This document shows, one piece after another, positions 3,105 to 11,452 of a stretch of 64,000 nucleotides of DNA. The notes beneath the pieces were generated by a model. That model ran no database searches and had not been told where the DNA came from. It saw nothing but the letters and a program-made list of their open reading frames with translations. How positions within the stretch are numbered: position 1 is the first letter of the stretch; every line of letters starts with the position of its first letter. Origin of the DNA: an uncultured Rhodospirillaceae bacterium (lineage in GTDB: Bacteria > Pseudomonadota > Alphaproteobacteria > UBA8366); NCBI GenBank assembly GCA_913043025.1, contig CAJWLM010000005.1, positions 62,001 to 126,000 on the forward strand, read 5' to 3'. The translations under genes were made by a program, and so were the position numbers.

Positions 3105-3755
3105 ATGACTGACTATTTTCAAGCAAAAAATATTTCCTGTAACCGAGGAGGAAGGTGTGTTTTTAAGGGGCTTTCATTCTCACTTCAAAACGGGGATGCA
3201 TTAATACTGCGCGGCCCAAATGGAAGCGGCAAGTCGAGTTTATTACGAATGATGGCTGGCCTGAGTACTCCAGTGAAGGGAGAATTAGTTTGGAATAAAA
3301 AAAATATCTCACAAGACCCTTGTCTTCATCGAGATCGCATTCATTACCTCGGGCATTTTGACGCGGTGAAACCTGCGCTTACCGTGAGAGAAAATCTTGC
3401 GATTTGGCAAAAGTTAAGAGGTGATGGCTTATCAGTCCGACAAGAAGAAAAAAAAGCCGTTGAGCGTGCCTTGATAGCATTTGACATGCTTCACTTGGAG
3501 GACCTGCCAGCCCGGCTTTTATCTTCCGGCGAGTCTCGAAGATTAGCCCTAGCACGTCTGTTGGCAAACAATGCATTTTTGTGGCTATTGGATGAACCGG
3601 CAAATGGACTTGATGACAGCTCTCGGTGTGCTCTAGAGGAAATCATTTCGGAACATCAAATGGCTGGTGGCATGGTAGTAATATCGATACATGGGCCATC
3701 GAATCTGGCAAATACTCGCACCTTAAACCTCACTTCAAATGCTAATCTCAAATGA
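3105..3755 (+). CDS. ccmA: Heme exporter ATP-binding protein CcmA
   Basis: The ATPase of the CcmABCD complex, which releases holo-CcmE from CcmC during System I cytochrome c maturation. The 216 residues carry a Walker A motif GPNGSGKS (37-44), a signature LSSGE (139-143) and a Walker B ending FLWLLDEP (158-165). Length is normal for the family. It is the first gene of the ccm operon and its stop overlaps the ccmB start by four bases. No conventional Shine-Dalgarno sequence is obvious in the AT-rich stretch before the ATG. Confidence 0.95.
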   Translation: MTDYFQAKNISCNRGGRCVFKGLSFSLQNGDALILRGPNGSGKSSLLRMMAGLSTPVKGELVWNKKNISQDPCLHRDRIHYLGHFDAVKPALTVRENLAIWQKLRGDGLSVRQEEKKAVERALIAFDMLHLEDLPARLLSSGESRRLALARLLANNAFLWLLDEPANGLDDSSRCALEEIISEHQMAGGMVVISIHGPSNLANTRTLNLTSNANLK

Positions 3756-4417
3756 GGGTGTTCATGGCGTTATTGGTCCGAGACCTTCGTTTAGCAGTGC
3801 GACAAAGCAGCGATGGAGTTATGGTGTTATCTTTTTATGTTATCGCAATAGTCCTTTTCCCGTTAGGCCTTGGTCCAGACCCCCAAACACTTGCGTCACT
3901 TGCGCCGGGACTATTGTGTGTCGCTGCATTACTAGCTGCAATATTGTCTCTTGAAGGGCTTTTTCGCTCAGATTATGAGGATGGTTCGCTAGAGCTTATG
4001 GCCGTCAGTCCAAACGACCTAGCCGTTCAAGTGCTCGCAAAAATCACGGCACATTGGATAACCACGGGACTCCCTTTAATTTTAGCAACTCCGTTTTTAG
4101 CATTTCTGCTTAATTTACCAGTACAAGCTTTATTCACCCTGATGCTTGCTATGGTGTTAGCCACACCAAGCCTCAGTCTAATCGGTGCAGTGGGGGCAAG
4201 TCTCACTGTCGGCGCCCGGCGAAGTGGCGTTTTAATATCGGTTCTTGTTCTTCCGCTTTATATTCCCGTACTAATATTCGCCGTCTCAGCTATCGATGCA
4301 GTACTATTAACGTACTCTCCAAAACCCCACCTTATGCTGTTGGGGGCTATTTTTGTAGCAGCTCTGCCGTTATGTACAATAACTTCCACGATAGCGTTGC
4401 GGCAGGCACTTGAATGA
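3752..4417 (+). CDS. ccmB: Heme exporter membrane protein CcmB
   Basis: Integral inner-membrane permease of the CcmABCD complex, 221 residues with six hydrophobic segments. The N-terminal LLVRDLRLA and the later SLEGLFRSDYEDGSLELM are typical CcmB sequence. ATGA overlap with ccmA indicates translational coupling. The 80 bases between it and ccmC hold no convincing gene, only a 10-residue open frame. Confidence 0.94.
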   Translation: MRVFMALLVRDLRLAVRQSSDGVMVLSFYVIAIVLFPLGLGPDPQTLASLAPGLLCVAALLAAILSLEGLFRSDYEDGSLELMAVSPNDLAVQVLAKITAHWITTGLPLILATPFLAFLLNLPVQALFTLMLAMVLATPSLSLIGAVGASLTVGARRSGVLISVLVLPLYIPVLIFAVSAIDAVLLTYSPKPHLMLLGAIFVAALPLCTITSTIALRQALE

Positions 4418-4497
4418 ATGGGACTAAGAGTCACAGTTTTTTTGATTGGGTAAGCTAGAACACGCCCTATATATTTAGATGTAAGGATATTATTCTA

Positions 4498-5235
4498 ATG
4501 CACCGTTATGCAAACCCTAGTCGATTTATTAGGATTGCCGACACCATATTTCCGTGGGCGGGCGGAATAATGATTACGGCGTTTGCAATTGGACTATACC
4601 TGGCTCTCCTCAAATCTCCCGCAGATTACCAGCAGAGCGAAATGGTGCGGATAATGTACATACATGTACCAGCCGCGTGGATGGCACTTTTCACATACGC
4701 ATTCATGGCGCTTTCGTCGGCCGCTGTATTGATATGGAAGCATCCGATAGCGCTTTTGAGTGCAAAGGCTGCAGCGCCTATAGGAGCCTCTTTCACGGTG
4801 ATATGCTTAGCGACTGGTTCATTGTGGGGAAAACCTATGTGGGGAACATGGTGGGTATGGGATGCACGGTTGACTTCGGTCCTTATATTGCTCTTTTTGT
4901 ATCTAGGTTATATTGCACTTATAAATGCTTTCGACGAAACAGAGAGGGGAGGCAAAGCGGCATCGTTGCTTGCGTTAGTCGGCGCAGTCAACCTACCCAT
5001 TATCAAGTATTCGGTTGATTGGTGGAACACACTTCACCAACCTGCCAGTGTATTTCGTTTAGACGGTCCTGCCATACATCCCGACATGCTTTGGCCACTC
5101 ATCATTATGGCCATAGCTTTTAAAATGTTTCTCCTCACCACCCTTGTCACTAGAATAAAAAGCGAGTTAATTGCTGCGCGAGTGCAAAATGTTCAACGCA
5201 GCCTGCATGGAAATTTAGCTGATGGCAGAGGTTGA
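4498..5235 (+). CDS. ccmC: Heme-handling protein CcmC
   Basis: Membrane protein that loads heme onto CcmE. The 245 residues have six membrane spans, the tryptophan-rich WWD domain at 115-127 (WGTWWVWDARLTS) and the two heme-ligand histidines H56 (YIHVPAAW) and H180 (WNTLHQPAS). AAGGA lies about 12 bases before the ATG. The 3' end overlaps ccmD by 14 bases. Confidence 0.96.
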   Translation: MHRYANPSRFIRIADTIFPWAGGIMITAFAIGLYLALLKSPADYQQSEMVRIMYIHVPAAWMALFTYAFMALSSAAVLIWKHPIALLSAKAAAPIGASFTVICLATGSLWGKPMWGTWWVWDARLTSVLILLFLYLGYIALINAFDETERGGKAASLLALVGAVNLPIIKYSVDWWNTLHQPASVFRLDGPAIHPDMLWPLIIMAIAFKMFLLTTLVTRIKSELIAARVQNVQRSLHGNLADGRG

Positions 5236-5401
5236 AGCCTATTTGGGAATGGGGGGGTATGGCGCTTTCATTTGGGCTGCATATTTGCTAGCCACATTGA
5301 TTTTGGCAGGGTTATTAGCACAATCACGCCGTGCGCTAAAAAAACAAGAGGCCTTGCTTCTTCGTCTTAAGTCAATCCGACGAGGCGACAGTGATGACTG
5401 A
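5222..5401 (+). CDS. ccmD: Heme exporter subunit CcmD
   Basis: A 59-residue single-span protein. The N-terminus (MAEVEAYLGMGGYGAFIWAA) contains the usual CcmD pattern before a membrane helix at about 15-36, followed by a basic tail (SRRALKKQEALLLRLK). CcmD links CcmC and CcmE in the heme-loading complex. It overlaps ccmC by 14 bases and ccmE by 8, exactly where ccmD sits in complete ccm operons. Confidence 0.92.
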   Translation: MAEVEAYLGMGGYGAFIWAAYLLATLILAGLLAQSRRALKKQEALLLRLKSIRRGDSDD

Positions 5402-5894
5402 TTCGCTTGGTCTCAAACGCACTCGCCGACAAAAGAGCCAGCGAGTTTACACACTGCTTTTTGGTCTCACGATGCTTGGGCTAGCCACTGCTCTTGTGTT
5501 GAACGCACTCGAAGATAGCATCGTTTTTTTTTACAGCCCGAGCGACTTGAGGGAGCGGAGTATTTCTCCAGAACAGCGTATCCGGGTAGGCGGGCTCGTT
5601 GAATTGGGTAGCTGGAAGAAAGCTAAGAGCCAAACAGTTCATGAATTTACTGTTACTGATGGGAAAAATAAAATTACAGCTACATTTAATGGAATTCTTC
5701 CAGATCTTTTTCGTGAGGGGCAAGGGGTAATAGCTGAGGGCCGGCTAAAAAATAATAGGTTATTCATAGCTGAAGAAGTGTTAGCCAAACACGATGAAAA
5801 TTATATGCCTCGTGAGGTCGCTGACGCTCTAAAAAAATCAGGCCACTGGAATAAAGGGAGTGGATCAAGAAGGAGCTCAGGGGAGCCTAAATGA
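5394..5894 (+). CDS. ccmE: Cytochrome c-type biogenesis heme chaperone CcmE
   Basis: Periplasmic heme chaperone anchored by an N-terminal helix (about residues 18-40) with an OB-fold domain. The heme-binding motif is H133-DEN-Y137 (AKHDENYMP), where histidine forms the covalent heme bond. I chose the ATG at 5394, which overlaps the ccmD stop as ATGACTGA; a GTG at 5391 is an alternative one codon upstream. Length is 166 residues, normal for CcmE. ATGA overlap with ccmF. Confidence 0.95.
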   Translation: MTDSLGLKRTRRQKSQRVYTLLFGLTMLGLATALVLNALEDSIVFFYSPSDLRERSISPEQRIRVGGLVELGSWKKAKSQTVHEFTVTDGKNKITATFNGILPDLFREGQGVIAEGRLKNNRLFIAEEVLAKHDENYMPREVADALKKSGHWNKGSGSRRSSGEPK

Positions 5895-7870
5895 CCGTAG
5901 AATTAGGACATTTCACGCTGATTCTGGCGTTTGTTTTTTCAATAACACAGGCTGCTTTCGGCTTCGCGGGTGCGGCAGCCCAACGGGTTGATTGGATTAA
6001 CGCCGCTAAAATTGCGGCACTAGTGCAATTTTTATTTACTACCTTAGCTTTTGCGGCATTAACCTACGCATACGTGACCAGTGATTTCTCAGTTCGAAAT
6101 GTCTTCGAAAATTCACACACATTAAAACCGTTGATCTACAAAATTTCCGGGGTATGGGGTAATCACGAGGGGTCTATGCTACTCTGGGTTCTGGTTCTAG
6201 CACTTTTTGGCGCTGCAGTTGCTAGCTTTGGCGGTAAACTGCCTTCGACCTTGCGTGCCCGAGTTCTTGGCGTCCAAGCACTTATTGGCATCGCATTTCT
6301 TGCCTTTATTTTAGTAACCTCAAATCCTTTTGAGCGTATAGTTCCTGCACCACTAGATGGGCAGGGCCTCAACCCACTTCTTCAAGACCCTGGCCTTGCA
6401 CTACATCCACCCATCTTGTACGTGGGCTATGTAGGATTTTCAGTTGCGTTCTCTTTCGCTATTGCAGCTCTGATTGAGGGAAATATAGATACATCCTGGG
6501 CACGGTGGGTGCGTCCTTGGACACTTTTAGCCTGGTCATTTCTCACCGGCGGCATTGCACTTGGAAGTTGGTGGGCTTATTACGAACTTGGGTGGGGGGG
6601 GTGGTGGTACTGGGACCCAGTAGAGAATGCTTCCTTAATGCCTTGGCTCGTCGGCACTGCGCTTTTGCACAGCTCAATTGTGGTAGAGAAACGTAACAGC
6701 CTCAAAAGCTGGACAATTTTGTTATCAATACTGACCTTTGCCCTAAGCTTGATAGGTACCTTCCTGGTACGCTCCGGTGTTCTGACGTCTGTCCACACTT
6801 TTGCTACAGACCCTGATCGTGGAGTATTTATTCTCGGTATTTTGTGCCTCGCGATTGGTGGTGGTCTTACTCTCTACGCTTGGAGGGCTCCGCACATCAA
6901 AGGTGGTAGATTATTTCAACCGATTAGTCGCGAAGGAGGGGTGTTGCTAAACAATTTGCTGCTTACGACAGCAGCTGCAACAGTATTTCTAGGCACGATT
7001 TATCCACTTGTGCTTGAGGTCTTTAATGGCTCAAAAATCTCTGTTGGCCCTCCATATTTTAATGCGACATTTGTGCCGCTCATGACACCACTAATAGCTG
7101 CGCTAGCAGTAGGGCCTTTACTTGGATGGAAAAGAGGAGACATTGCCGGAGCGTTGTCCCGGTTAAAAGCTACGGCTGCAACAGCCATAACCGTATTTAT
7201 TTTTGTGGCATGGACAGCAGGACAAAACAGTGTTTGGGCAGCATTCGGAATATTTCTAGGGGTTTGGCTTGCTGGCGGCGTGATTACAGAATTAGCCAAA
7301 AAAATCGGTTTGGGCCAAAGGTCACCCATGGAAAGTTGGCGGCGCTTATTAAAAATTTCGCGAAGTTCGTGGGGCATGTCTCTGGCGCATTTCGGCCTCG
7401 CGGTATTTATAATAGGCGCGACTGGTTTATCCTTTTGGAAAGAAGAGAAAATCGTTTTAATGCAGCCAGCTGAAACAGCCGAAATAGGAGATTACAGGGT
7501 CACATTTAATGGAGTGCGAGATCAAAACGGGCCTAATTATATCGCACGACAAGCCGTTTTTACCGTGGAGCATGAAGATAAAGAAAAGTTCAACATGACA
7601 GCAGAAAAACGCCGTTATCCCGTTTCCCAACAAGAAACAACCGAGGCCGGAATAAAAAATGGCTGGCTTGAAGATTTGTATATCGTGATCGGCACTAATG
7701 ATAAAAAAAACGGCCAAACGGTGCGCATTTACCTCATGCCTTTAGTGGGTTGGATCTGGATGGGTGTCCTTATAATGGTATTTGGAGGACTCTTTTCACT
7801 AACAGATCGGCGCTTTCGGATTGGAGTCCCAGAACGTGAAGAGATTGCTGGGCCAGCTCCAGCAGAGTAG
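5891..7870 (+). CDS. ccmF: Cytochrome c heme lyase subunit CcmF
   Basis: Large polytopic membrane protein, 659 residues, that ligates heme from CcmE to apocytochrome c together with CcmH and CcmI. The WWD motif is at 235-252 (WGGWWYWDPVENASLMPW). Conserved WGNHEGSMLLW is at 89-99, and a late periplasmic domain is followed by the final membrane helix near 630-650. Overlaps ccmE by four bases; ccmG starts eight bases after its stop. Confidence 0.97.
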   Translation: MTVELGHFTLILAFVFSITQAAFGFAGAAAQRVDWINAAKIAALVQFLFTTLAFAALTYAYVTSDFSVRNVFENSHTLKPLIYKISGVWGNHEGSMLLWVLVLALFGAAVASFGGKLPSTLRARVLGVQALIGIAFLAFILVTSNPFERIVPAPLDGQGLNPLLQDPGLALHPPILYVGYVGFSVAFSFAIAALIEGNIDTSWARWVRPWTLLAWSFLTGGIALGSWWAYYELGWGGWWYWDPVENASLMPWLVGTALLHSSIVVEKRNSLKSWTILLSILTFALSLIGTFLVRSGVLTSVHTFATDPDRGVFILGILCLAIGGGLTLYAWRAPHIKGGRLFQPISREGGVLLNNLLLTTAAATVFLGTIYPLVLEVFNGSKISVGPPYFNATFVPLMTPLIAALAVGPLLGWKRGDIAGALSRLKATAATAITVFIFVAWTAGQNSVWAAFGIFLGVWLAGGVITELAKKIGLGQRSPMESWRRLLKISRSSWGMSLAHFGLAVFIIGATGLSFWKEEKIVLMQPAETAEIGDYRVTFNGVRDQNGPNYIARQAVFTVEHEDKEKFNMTAEKRRYPVSQQETTEAGIKNGWLEDLYIVIGTNDKKNGQTVRIYLMPLVGWIWMGVLIMVFGGLFSLTDRRFRIGVPEREEIAGPAPAE

Positions 7871-7878
7871 GTATCCAT

Positions 7879-8415
7879 ATGCGCCAGTTATTATTTCTCT
7901 TGCCATTGTCCACCTTTATTTTACTCGCAGCATACTTCGGACTGGGACTTACAAAAGATCCAGGATTAATTCCGTCTGCACTAATTGGCAAGCCAGCCCC
8001 AAAGTTTGATCTGCCGTCGTTAATGCCGGGAGAAAAGGGTATCAATGAACATGATTTCAAAGGCAGGGTATCAATTATAAATGTTTTTGCGTCATGGTGC
8101 GTACCTTGCCTTGCTGAGCATCCTATTTGGATGCAAATTCATAATAACACTTCGATACCGATCTACGGGATTGCGTGGAAAGACAAACGAGAAAGTACAA
8201 TGCGTTGGTTAGAAAAACACGGAAATCCCTACGTCAGGATCGGTTACGATCCTCTGAATGTGTTTGGCATAGAATGGGGAGTTTACGGTGCACCTGAAAC
8301 CTACATAGTCGACAAGACGGGTCGGATTAGGTTCAAGCATGTTGGTCCTATTTTCCCAGGTTTATGGCAATCGCAAATCTTTCCTTTAGTAGAAAAAATA
8401 CGGGCAGAAAAATAA
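7879..8415 (+). CDS. ccmG: Thiol:disulfide interchange protein CcmG/DsbE
   Basis: Membrane-anchored periplasmic thioredoxin that keeps the apocytochrome CXXCH motif reduced. The 178 residues have an N-terminal anchor at 4-24 and an active site ASWC74-VP-C77 with a conserved acid downstream (CLAEHP). The late cis-proline region is YGAPETYIVD. The stop overlaps the ccmH start as TAATG. Confidence 0.95.
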   Translation: MRQLLFLLPLSTFILLAAYFGLGLTKDPGLIPSALIGKPAPKFDLPSLMPGEKGINEHDFKGRVSIINVFASWCVPCLAEHPIWMQIHNNTSIPIYGIAWKDKRESTMRWLEKHGNPYVRIGYDPLNVFGIEWGVYGAPETYIVDKTGRIRFKHVGPIFPGLWQSQIFPLVEKIRAEK

Positions 8416-8885
8416 TGAAACTTTTTCTGATTCCTTTGTTTTTAATGATGCTGTTTGCCACCTCTGCTGAGGCGGTTGAGCCTGATGAGTTATTAGAGGA
8501 TTCACGTCTTGAAGCCCGTGCAAGGGCCTTATCTGTAGATATTCGATGTCTTGTTTGTCAGAATCAATCAATCGATGATTCCGACTCCGACCTGGCCAAA
8601 GATCTTCGTAAGCTTGTGCGCAAAAAAGTGAAAGAGGGCGCCTCTGATGAGGATATAAGGAATTATCTTGTAACCAGGTATGGCGAATTCGTATTACTAC
8701 ACCCTCGCATTACCAGCGACACCTACATCCTTTGGTTTGGTCCCATTGTAATCTTACTAGCTGGCATCATTGGTATATTTACATTTTTCCTGCGCCATTC
8801 CAAAAACAACTCCATACAACCCTCACTAGTTCTGAGTGAAGATGAAGAGAAACGGATTTCAGAACTCATCAATAACAGGGGCTGA
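8415..8885 (+). CDS. ccmH: Cytochrome c-type biogenesis protein CcmH (CcmL)
   Basis: Thioredox-active subunit of the heme lyase, 156 residues: signal peptide (about 1-20), active-site C45-LV-C48 in the family motif (RCLVCQNQSI), a three-helix domain and a C-terminal membrane helix at about 112-133. I start it at the ATG overlapping the ccmG stop; longer frames upstream lie inside ccmG. It is the short form of CcmH, with the TPR part encoded separately as ccmI. Confidence 0.94.
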   Translation: MKLFLIPLFLMMLFATSAEAVEPDELLEDSRLEARARALSVDIRCLVCQNQSIDDSDSDLAKDLRKLVRKKVKEGASDEDIRNYLVTRYGEFVLLHPRITSDTYILWFGPIVILLAGIIGIFTFFLRHSKNNSIQPSLVLSEDEEKRISELINNRG

Positions 8886-8891
8886 TAAAAA

Positions 8892-10289
8892 ATTTTCTGG
8901 TTATTTGCATCTATACTGCTAGGGACTGGCCTAGGCGCCCTACTGTGGCCACTCTTAAGATTTCAGTCTGTAAAAAGTAATTTTCCCAGAGATCATAAGG
9001 AAGGTTACACGGACCAGCTCAACAAGCTTGAGCGTGATCGTAAGAAAGGCAAATTAAGCGACACTGAAGCAAGAATTGGCCGAACTCATATCGCGCGCCA
9101 CCTTCTAGCTTCTACTAGGGCCGCCAAAGGTGGCATAACAGCCATCTTTTCAAAAAAACTGAGGAATATCATCCTCGTTACCACAGTAATCCTCGTTCCT
9201 GTGGTTTCATTCGGACTTTATATTGCCGTTGGCCAGCCTAGCCTAGTTGATCAAAGATTTGCCATGCCCCCAAAAGATGAGAATCGGTTAGATTCTGTTA
9301 ATTCGAATAATCTTGAGGTCATAGCCCAAGGCTTGTTGCAGCAGTTGCAAGTTGAATCAAAAAATGTGCGCGGCTGGGTAATGTTGGCACGCTATTACAT
9401 AAATCTTGGAAAGTATGGAAAAGCTGTGCTTGCTGCGGAGAGGGCTGTTAGCATTGACAGTCAAGATTCAGAAGCTCAGTCTGTTTATGGGGAAACTCTT
9501 TATTTCGCGGCTGACAGAATAATTACACCAATTGTTCGATCAACATTTTTGACCGTCTTAGAGAAAGAGCCCACAGAACCAAGAGCGCGCTACTACTTAG
9601 CCTTAGCGGATGCAATCGACGGGAAAGAGCCAGAGGCTCATTCAGCACTACAAACCTTGATAGACGAGAGTCCTATTGAGGCACCATATCTACCGATACT
9701 GTTATATACTGCAGATACTATTGCAAAAAAGATTGGGCTAAAGTCAATACTATCCACTAAAGCAAGGCACGTGATGCGGGAATTATTAAAAAAATCACCC
9801 GCATGGTGGACAACGAAGGAAGATCTCAGAGCTGCCACAATTATATTTGAGGCCGATCAGAACCGAGTGGTTAGATATATTGTGGGACGACTGGAACACA
9901 AGCTTCGTAAAAATCAAGCTGATTTGAATGGCTGGGTAAAATCTGCAAATGCATATCAAGTGTTAGGAGAAGTTTCCAAAGAGGAGGCTGCTTTGCGGAA
10001 AGCAGCTCATCTTGCGCCACAGAATGTTGAGATCCTCCTGCGCTATGGACGCATATTACGAAAGGTTGCGGAAAACAAACAGACTGAAGAATCTGTCGCG
10101 TTGATGCGTCAAGTTCTGACAGTTGACCCAGACAATCTTGAAGCACTATTTCTGGTAGGCCGCGCAGAAGCCTCAGCGGGTCGCATTGACATCGGCAAAG
10201 CTCTTATGATGAAAGCGCTCCGCAAGCTTCCCCAGGACACTAAAGAATACATTGCGCTTAAAAAACAAATCGAGTCCATTAGCGAATAA
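8892..10289 (+). CDS. ccmI: Cytochrome c-type biogenesis TPR protein CcmI (non-canonical 5' end)
   Basis: Apocytochrome chaperone of the heme lyase. The frame reads IFWLFASILLGTG from base 8892, a typical CcmI first membrane helix, then a cytoplasmic loop, a second helix near 9170-9230, and TPR repeats to the C-terminus (about 465 residues in all). No ATG, GTG or TTG occurs in frame until the GTG at 9201, which would cut off both the first helix and the loop. An in-frame TAA lies at 8886-8888. Candidate starts are ATT at 8892, or a CTG at 8882 if one A of the A6 run (8887-8892) is an extra base. Function is confident, start is not. Confidence 0.85.
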   Translation: MFWLFASILLGTGLGALLWPLLRFQSVKSNFPRDHKEGYTDQLNKLERDRKKGKLSDTEARIGRTHIARHLLASTRAAKGGITAIFSKKLRNIILVTTVILVPVVSFGLYIAVGQPSLVDQRFAMPPKDENRLDSVNSNNLEVIAQGLLQQLQVESKNVRGWVMLARYYINLGKYGKAVLAAERAVSIDSQDSEAQSVYGETLYFAADRIITPIVRSTFLTVLEKEPTEPRARYYLALADAIDGKEPEAHSALQTLIDESPIEAPYLPILLYTADTIAKKIGLKSILSTKARHVMRELLKKSPAWWTTKEDLRAATIIFEADQNRVVRYIVGRLEHKLRKNQADLNGWVKSANAYQVLGEVSKEEAALRKAAHLAPQNVEILLRYGRILRKVAENKQTEESVALMRQVLTVDPDNLEALFLVGRAEASAGRIDIGKALMMKALRKLPQDTKEYIALKKQIESISE

Positions 10290-10369
10290 ATTCAAGACCG
10301 CGCTGCTTGCACCTCTGTGAGAGCTCAGCTAGCTTGCTCAATAGGAATTTGTATAAAGGGGGGACATAC

Positions 10370-11452
10370 ATGTCCGACAGCGTCGAATGTATAGGCTGCG
10401 AGCTAACCTATCGTGCCAACGCACCATGTTTTGAAAGAAACCCGTCGGCGCTGACATCCGATACACCACGGCCAGTTACTGTCAACGGTAAGAAACAACT
10501 TGTCATCGATATGCATGCGCATTGCCAGTTTCCCGAAATCATGCCCCTAATCAAAGATAGACCTGAGTTAGACGGTAAAGATCCGTTTGGCCAAGGAGGA
10601 TGGGGAAAAGGGCAGGAAATTGAAAGGCGCCTGAACGCAATGAATGCCATGGGCGTTGACATCCAAGTATTGTCGATTAGCGTTTTTCATCATCATCATT
10701 GGGCGGAGTACAGCCTAGCCGAGGATTTGTGCCAAATTCAAAATGAGAGAATGACAGAGATTTGTGCCCTTTATCCCGACCGCTTTGTGCCCCTCTCCAT
10801 AGTAGCACTGCAGCACCCCGAACTTGCAGCAACCCAGCTCGAGTGTAATGTAAAGGAAATGGGGCACCGGGGGGCAATGATTACTGCTGCGCTTGATGGC
10901 GAAGAGTTATCGAATGAGCGTTTTCACCCCTTCTGGGCCAAAGCAGAAGAGTTGGATGTTCCTATCTTTATACATCCTCGTCATTTCCGAGAAGGTGCGC
11001 CGCGTTTCAAGGGACAAGGTTTCCTATCGAATATCATCGGCAACCCGCTCGACACGACAGTAGCGTTAGCACATCTTATCTACGAGGGCACGCTAGATAA
11101 GTTCCCAGGAGTCAAAATTGTCGCCGCCCATGGCGGCGGATATTTAGCCTCCAATATAGGTCGCTTTGACCACGGCCATAACAGTGGCGATCGCGGAGGG
11201 CGAGGTGCTGAAAAAAAAGCACCAAGCGACTACCTAAATCAGCTTTATTTCGACACAGTAGTCTTTGGCACCGAAAATCTACACCACCTCATTCGTGAAT
11301 GCGGTGCCGGGCAATTAGTCCTAGGAACTGATTACCCAGCCGGAATGAGCAATATCAATCCAGTCGCCCATTTGCTGAGTGTCGAAGGATTGAGCGACGA
11401 AGATATAGAAGCCATTCTCAGCGGTACAGTTAAGAAGCTTTTAAAAATATGA
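10370..11452 (+). CDS. Amidohydrolase-2 / ACMSD-family metal-dependent hydrolase or decarboxylase
   Basis: A 360-residue TIM-barrel enzyme of the family containing aminocarboxymuconate-semialdehyde decarboxylase, gamma-resorcylate decarboxylase and LigW. All expected metal ligands are visible: H49 and H51 (DMHAHCQFP), H202 (IHPRHF), H254 (AAHGGGYL) and D321 (GTDYPAG). The N-terminus carries three cysteines (C7, C10, C20), unusual for the family. The ATG at 10370 is chosen because AAGGGGGG precedes it by six bases. It is followed 19 bases later by an alpha/beta hydrolase, suggesting a two-gene operon for ring-compound breakdown. The substrate cannot be told from sequence. Confidence 0.85.
   Translation: MSDSVECIGCELTYRANAPCFERNPSALTSDTPRPVTVNGKKQLVIDMHAHCQFPEIMPLIKDRPELDGKDPFGQGGWGKGQEIERRLNAMNAMGVDIQVLSISVFHHHHWAEYSLAEDLCQIQNERMTEICALYPDRFVPLSIVALQHPELAATQLECNVKEMGHRGAMITAALDGEELSNERFHPFWAKAEELDVPIFIHPRHFREGAPRFKGQGFLSNIIGNPLDTTVALAHLIYEGTLDKFPGVKIVAAHGGGYLASNIGRFDHGHNSGDRGGRGAEKKAPSDYLNQLYFDTVVFGTENLHHLIRECGAGQLVLGTDYPAGMSNINPVAHLLSVEGLSDEDIEAILSGTVKKLLKI

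Follow-up and report, generated by a model that had tools for sequence, protein, structure and literature searches.

In all three genomes of its genus examined here, the cytochrome c maturation gene ccmI has lost its standard start codon, probably in a single event, and the most likely replacement, judged from sequence comparison, is an AUU codon at positions 8892-8894 (forward strand) of the window, i.e. the 64,000-nucleotide stretch of DNA analysed in this study. CcmI and the pathway it serves are ordinary; what is new is the start codon, a further case of a small known class.

Results

The ccm operon and the ccmI frame

The assembly behind the window (G000) comprises 3.08 Mb in 65 contigs and, together with two congeners (G001 and G002), makes up the genus sample of three genomes. 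The cytochrome c maturation operon spans positions 3105-10289 in the order ccmA, ccmB, ccmC, a ccmD-like frame, ccmE, ccmF, ccmG, ccmH and ccmI, with ccmI directly downstream of ccmH. Family models back CcmC, CcmE, CcmF, a DsbE-type CcmG, CcmH and CcmI, and we take ccmA, ccmB and the ccmD-like frame of 59 amino acids (5222-5401) to be such from their place in the operon and from general knowledge of these genes. Five of the eight junctions in the operon are overlapping (A/B, C/D, D/E, E/F and G/H), and B/C, F/G and H/I are without overlap. The ccmH gene (8415-8885, forward strand; 156 aa; Pfam PF03918 at 162.8 bits with a query protein taken from 8418, one residue short) starts with an ATG overlapping the ccmG stop (TAATG) and ends with TGA at 8883-8885, followed by an in-frame TAA at 8886-8888. 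The gene 3' of ccmI (10307-11452) is presumably amidohydrolase-like, and a strong Shine-Dalgarno match (-11.6 kcal/mol) precedes its ATG at 10370, in contrast to the situation at ccmI. Across the 64-kb window, Rfam returned two tRNAs and nothing else.

The open ccmI frame (8889-10289) begins after the TAA at 8886 with AAA ATT TTC TGG TTA TTT GCA, and in the window sequence no ATG, GTG or TTG is present in this frame between that TAA and a GTG at 9201-9203 (forward strand), which is codon 104 counted from ATT 8892, a start there costing 103 residues. Taken from ATT, ccmI (8892-10289, forward strand) consists of 465 codons and a stop, and encodes a first helix, a loop, a second helix and a TPR domain. 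The TIGR03142 (CcmI) model covers residues 3-117 of the stop-to-stop frame with 67.9 bits against a cut-off of 29.3, indicating that the stretch before GTG 9201 is genuine CcmI, and the product also matched PF23914 (TPR_CcmH_CycH) and TPR models. Hydrophobic peaks are observed over residues 1-22 and 89-119, the peak window of the first starting at residue 1; two membrane helices, read from these peaks, and a TPR domain are the make-up of CcmI. Among the 55 frames of the window (at least 150 codons, kept by length, less than 30% overlap), ccmI is the sole outlier, no other frame having its first standard start past codon 40: counted from the stop, this start is at codon 105, and at codon 37 in the next-highest frame.

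Coding constraint on the N-terminal part

Relative to both congeners, synonymous change per site exceeds non-synonymous change in codons 1-30 as well as in codons 1-103. For codons 1-30 the Fisher test gave p 0.0006 (G001) and 0.02 (G002), with 11 changes at the third position and 3 and 2 (G001) or 2 and 2 (G002) at the other positions. The synonymous/non-synonymous contrast is also significant over codons 1-103 (p 0.02 and 0.009), but there the substitutions by codon position are not significantly uneven (p 0.39 and 0.13). The dN/dS values against G000 are 0.45 and 0.48 in codons 1-103 and 0.26 and 0.24 in the rest of ccmI, suggesting that the N-terminal part is constrained, less tightly than the rest. 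The position counts over codons 1-103 and their higher dN/dS both weigh against the AUU start. Taken together, sequence, coordinates, the TIGR03142 match and the synonymous excess confirm the claim of an earlier note on this DNA that the coding frame extends upstream of GTG 9201 to 8889, behind TAA 8886, and the loss of about 100 residues that it foresaw in automatic annotation corresponds to the 103 residues between ATT and GTG 9201.

The junction in the congeners

The ccmI products of G001 and G002 share 79% and 78% amino-acid identity with that of the window, and a standard ccmI start (ATG, GTG or TTG) is absent in all three genomes. Since both congeners are also without it, the missing start is not a single base-calling error; the loss in three members of the genus may nevertheless be one inherited event and not three independent samples. 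The A6 run at 8887-8892 (forward strand) makes the spacer of the window one base longer than that of the congeners: the run reads GATAAAAAATT in the window and GATAAAGATT in G001 and G002, and the junction reads GGCT(G/A)ATAAAGATTTTCTGG in the congeners against GGCTGATAAAAAATTTTCTGG, with one more base, in the window. A homopolymer error hiding a usable start does not account for the finding, as the congeners read AAAG, one base fewer, and still have no standard start, which makes its absence independent of homopolymer length.

Upstream of ATT, the ccmI frame of the congeners is open over five to six codons (CAG AGG CTG ATA AAG in G001, CAA CAG AGG CTA ATA AAG in G002), and no ATG, GTG or TTG occurs among these codons in either genome. 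The one-nucleotide length difference sits directly 5' of ATT, and the 465 codons that follow align without gaps; a length change outside the frame from ATT and none inside it fits a coding start at ATT. Further inside ccmI, in-frame standard codons are found at TTG 24 and ATG 40 in both congeners, and at ATG 17 and TTG 72 in G002, and these codons between 17 and 72 could make gene callers choose a truncated start that differs from one species to the next. A scan of genome contigs for the same junction gave one locus (L044), whose 200 bases at the junction are identical to those of G001 and which is hence not an independent sample; viral contigs gave 0 matches. An overlapping upstream frame beginning at ATG 8842 was rejected as a candidate since, on our reading, it is closed in G002 and hence not conserved.

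Starts of ccmI in the order and class

TIGR03142, used to find ccmI in relatives, matched in 38 of the 43 genomes of the order and in 96 of the 190 of the class. N-termini were read for 131 genes, 128 outside the genus and three in it; G180, G078, G094, G153:C181, G079:C14 and G012:C11 were left out because the N-terminus was missed or the match was weak. Comparison with orthologues had been proposed as a check, and it supports the missing start: the congeners have no conventional start at ccmI, whereas a standard start lies within six codons in 127 of the 128 relatives outside the genus. From six codons before to five codons after the domain start, an ATG is present in 108 of these 128 and a GTG or TTG without ATG in 19, and the sole ATG of the remaining one lies ten codons upstream of the domain start. 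None of the 128 N-termini is without any standard start, in a test that takes any ATG, GTG or TTG between 20 codons before and 5 codons after the domain start, so that chance codons could mask a loss.

The ccmI start overlaps the upstream stop as NTGA (mostly ATGA) in 82 of the 128 relatives, and in five of the six examined in the same family; a TAATG-type overlap is found in 8 and neither overlap type in 38, when a standard start near the domain start is compared with the stop of a preceding frame (50 codons or longer) that is presumed to be ccmH. At this overlap site the genus reads CTGA in the window (8882-8885, forward strand), CTGA in G001 and CTAA in G002, likely a relic of the ancestral start. 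Some relatives read ATG ATT TTC TGG (L058, L077 and L177) or GTG ATT TTC TGG (L057) at the beginning of ccmI. ATT 8892 stands two codons ahead of the conserved Trp, and among the 107 relatives that could be anchored on this residue the nearest standard start is at -2 in 30 and at -3 in 53 (20 of the 128 have no TGG near the anchor, and one has no start within ten codons).

Candidate start codons and their ribosome-binding context

Within codons 1-110, a standard or near-cognate start is present in all three species at codons 1, 8, 18, 90, 93, 94, 100 and 104. Codon 1 is ATT, codon 8 ATA, codon 18 CTG and codon 104 GTG in each species, and among the shared codons only codon 1 retains the entire first hydrophobic stretch. 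A near-cognate ATT is conserved at the right place in the three related genomes, 6 nt past the ccmH stop in the window, and ATT alone combines the right frame, a Shine-Dalgarno-like stretch ahead of it and presence in all three species. This stretch is AGGGG at 8877-8881 (forward strand), 10 nt before ATT, and AGAGG in both congeners, 9 nt before it; the predicted pairing with the 16S tail extends from AGGGG through CTGA to 8885. The duplexes formed by the 20 bases before ATT reach -7.0 (G000), -6.3 (G001) and -5.8 kcal/mol (G002), compared with -11.5 kcal/mol for infC, and since 66, 100 and 142 of 1000 random window 20-mers, respectively, pair as strongly, they give modest support. Four folds of the RNA at the ccmI start gave z values of +0.87 to +1.39, i.e. 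less structure than shuffles; such weak structure is compatible with easy initiation and is not evidence for it.

infC as a control

The infC gene is the textbook case of a non-AUG start. A search through the family's 11 genomes located it in nine, G001 and G010 being the exceptions; locus L189 is cut and was left out of the count. At the eight readable loci (L054, L055 and L183-L188) the product begins IARRP at ATA (six) or ATC (two), and no standard start in the first codons is common to all eight; these starts are relatives of the AUU of E. coli infC. A strong Shine-Dalgarno match (-11.5 kcal/mol) precedes the ATA of G000 and G002; codon 7 is a possible standard start (ATG or TTG) in these two genomes and is not conserved elsewhere in the family. 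With infC of the family read as starting at ATA or ATC, the comparison picks up, in these organisms, a non-AUG start of a known kind. For the infC matches L184 (G007) and L186 (G003), the search reported one internal TGA each.

Discussion

We consider it likely, from the pattern of conservation across the three genomes, that ccmI is a working gene, translated from AUU 8892-8894 into a normal CcmI whose N-terminus is (f)Met-Phe-Trp-Leu-Phe-Ala. AUU and CUG are weak start codons. Several observations count against this start: the Shine-Dalgarno match is of modest strength, G002 having the weakest; and the sample holds only three genomes, two of them close (92% nucleotide identity over ccmI), so that the conservation of one codon is statistically weak. 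A switch from AUG to AUU is moreover very rare, the available part of one survey giving 1 of 61,358 ancestral AUG starts (PMC5622118), which we also count against the AUU reading.

The earlier note had left the choice between ATT 8892 and CTG 8882, and the congeners separate the two, ATT being kept in both and CTG being in frame only in G001, replaced by CTA in G002 and out of frame in the window. A start at CTG 8882 or ATA 8885, with the additional A of the window explained by an assembly or sequencing error or by a rare frameshift, appears to us rather improbable. CTG 8882 does stand at the NTGA overlap site of 82 of the 128 relatives and ATA is in frame in both congeners, in a genus whose infC appears to use ATA as start; but neither codon is in frame in the deposited sequence of G000, and the gap from the end of AGGGG is 0 nt for CTG and 3 nt for ATA, a spacing closer than is usual for a Shine-Dalgarno sequence. 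The use of a standard downstream codon, GTG 9201 in the window, to make a shorter protein is very unlikely: this GTG is found at codon 104 in all three genomes, but it falls within the second hydrophobic stretch and lacks a Shine-Dalgarno match (+0.6 kcal/mol), a start there would delete the conserved first helix and the loop, and none of the earlier standard codons of G001 (24, 40) and G002 (17, 24, 40, 72) is common with G000.

Two further explanations dispense with a separate start or with the protein itself. Loss of the start codon would be a plausible first step of gene decay, but a frame of 465 codons, free of stops and gaps in all three species, and a dN/dS of 0.24-0.37 in codons 104 to the end and 0.29-0.48 in codons 1-103 make it highly improbable that ccmI is decaying and not made. 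Production of CcmI as a fusion with CcmH by readthrough or frameshifting, similar to the fused CcmH of E. coli, would agree with the common frame of ccmH and ccmI in G000, where TGA TAA lies between them. These are, however, two consecutive stops, no shared slippery site was seen by eye at the junction, and the two frames differ in G001 and G002; as the frame relation varies between species, we reject such a fusion, to which we give hardly any probability.

If AUU is the start, the simplest account of the junction would be that the ancestral ccmI start overlapped the ccmH stop, probably as ATGA, and that the overlapping ATG was lost in the genus, where CTG or CTA now stands. An extra 6-7 nt, AAAGAT-like, would now lie between the old start site and the former codon 2, and this old second codon, Ile (ATT), would have taken over as start. 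Ribosomes bound at the end of ccmH or just released from it, and held by AGGGG or AGAGG, would initiate at the AUU 5-6 nt past the stop, and re-initiation by ribosomes finishing ccmH perhaps helps this start. That AUU is the codon used, and that its use brings low output and sensitivity to IF3, is what we infer for the genus. A stronger proposal, in which the genus has swapped a coupled ATGA for AUU so that CcmI is low, needs re-initiation from ccmH and is gated by IF3, itself AUA-started, is speculative and in our opinion unlikely to be correct in full; if true, it would tie cytochrome c assembly to the fidelity of initiation through the gating of CcmI by IF3.

Bacterial genes that start with a codon outside the set AUG, GUG and UUG have rarely been characterised, according to the available text of PMC5472188, and among the titles seen in literature naming both 'CcmI' and 'start codon', none has a non-standard ccmI start as its topic. 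The ccmI gene of this genus would join the small known class of infC, pcnB and sigR, most likely with AUU 8892, the best-supported replacement. For gene callers restricted to three start codons this is a practical warning, as they would truncate or misplace the CcmI membrane protein, by 103 residues here. The case also carries its own history, since the NTGA overlap persists in relatives and what replaced it can be read from the genus.

In the part of the literature consulted, CcmI consists of two helices and a large periplasmic domain, and the c-type cytochromes of Rhodobacter capsulatus and Bradyrhizobium japonicum depend on it (PMC3884852). The CcmI of the window resembles these other alphaproteobacterial proteins in its domain make-up (two helices, periplasmic TPR) and in the place of its gene after ccmH (PMC3884852), and the genus differs from other Alphaproteobacteria in the start itself, which is standard within six codons in 127 of the 128 relatives examined. 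In E. coli, infC and pcnB both start with AUU (PMC1780047; for infC also PMC5472188), and ccmI would be similar to them in that the same rare AUU starts a conserved protein, in so far as these sources describe it. They differ in role: E. coli infC forms an autoregulatory loop of IF3 and the expression of pcnB is lowered by its AUU, whereas ccmI is an assembly gene. IF3 is described as repressing non-canonical starts, e.g. those of infC and Streptomyces sigR (PMC5472188), and by analogy it may repress that of ccmI. The lepA genes of Borrelia burgdorferi and Bacillus licheniformis, which reach full length only with AUU, were likewise recognised by comparison, as far as the excerpt of PMC1780047 tells, but concern another gene in other lineages. 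A further parallel is sigR, which starts with GTC in 32 of 34 Streptomyces genomes and with GTT in 2, the sections available giving no evidence for it in other genera (PMC5472188); as ccmI would, it combines a non-canonical start confined to one genus with a translationally coupled operon and a misassignment by annotation. The ribosome site of sigR is extensive (AGGAGGTG) and its start is proven by experiment (PMC5472188), whereas the site of ccmI is modest and its AUU start a prediction from sequence comparison.
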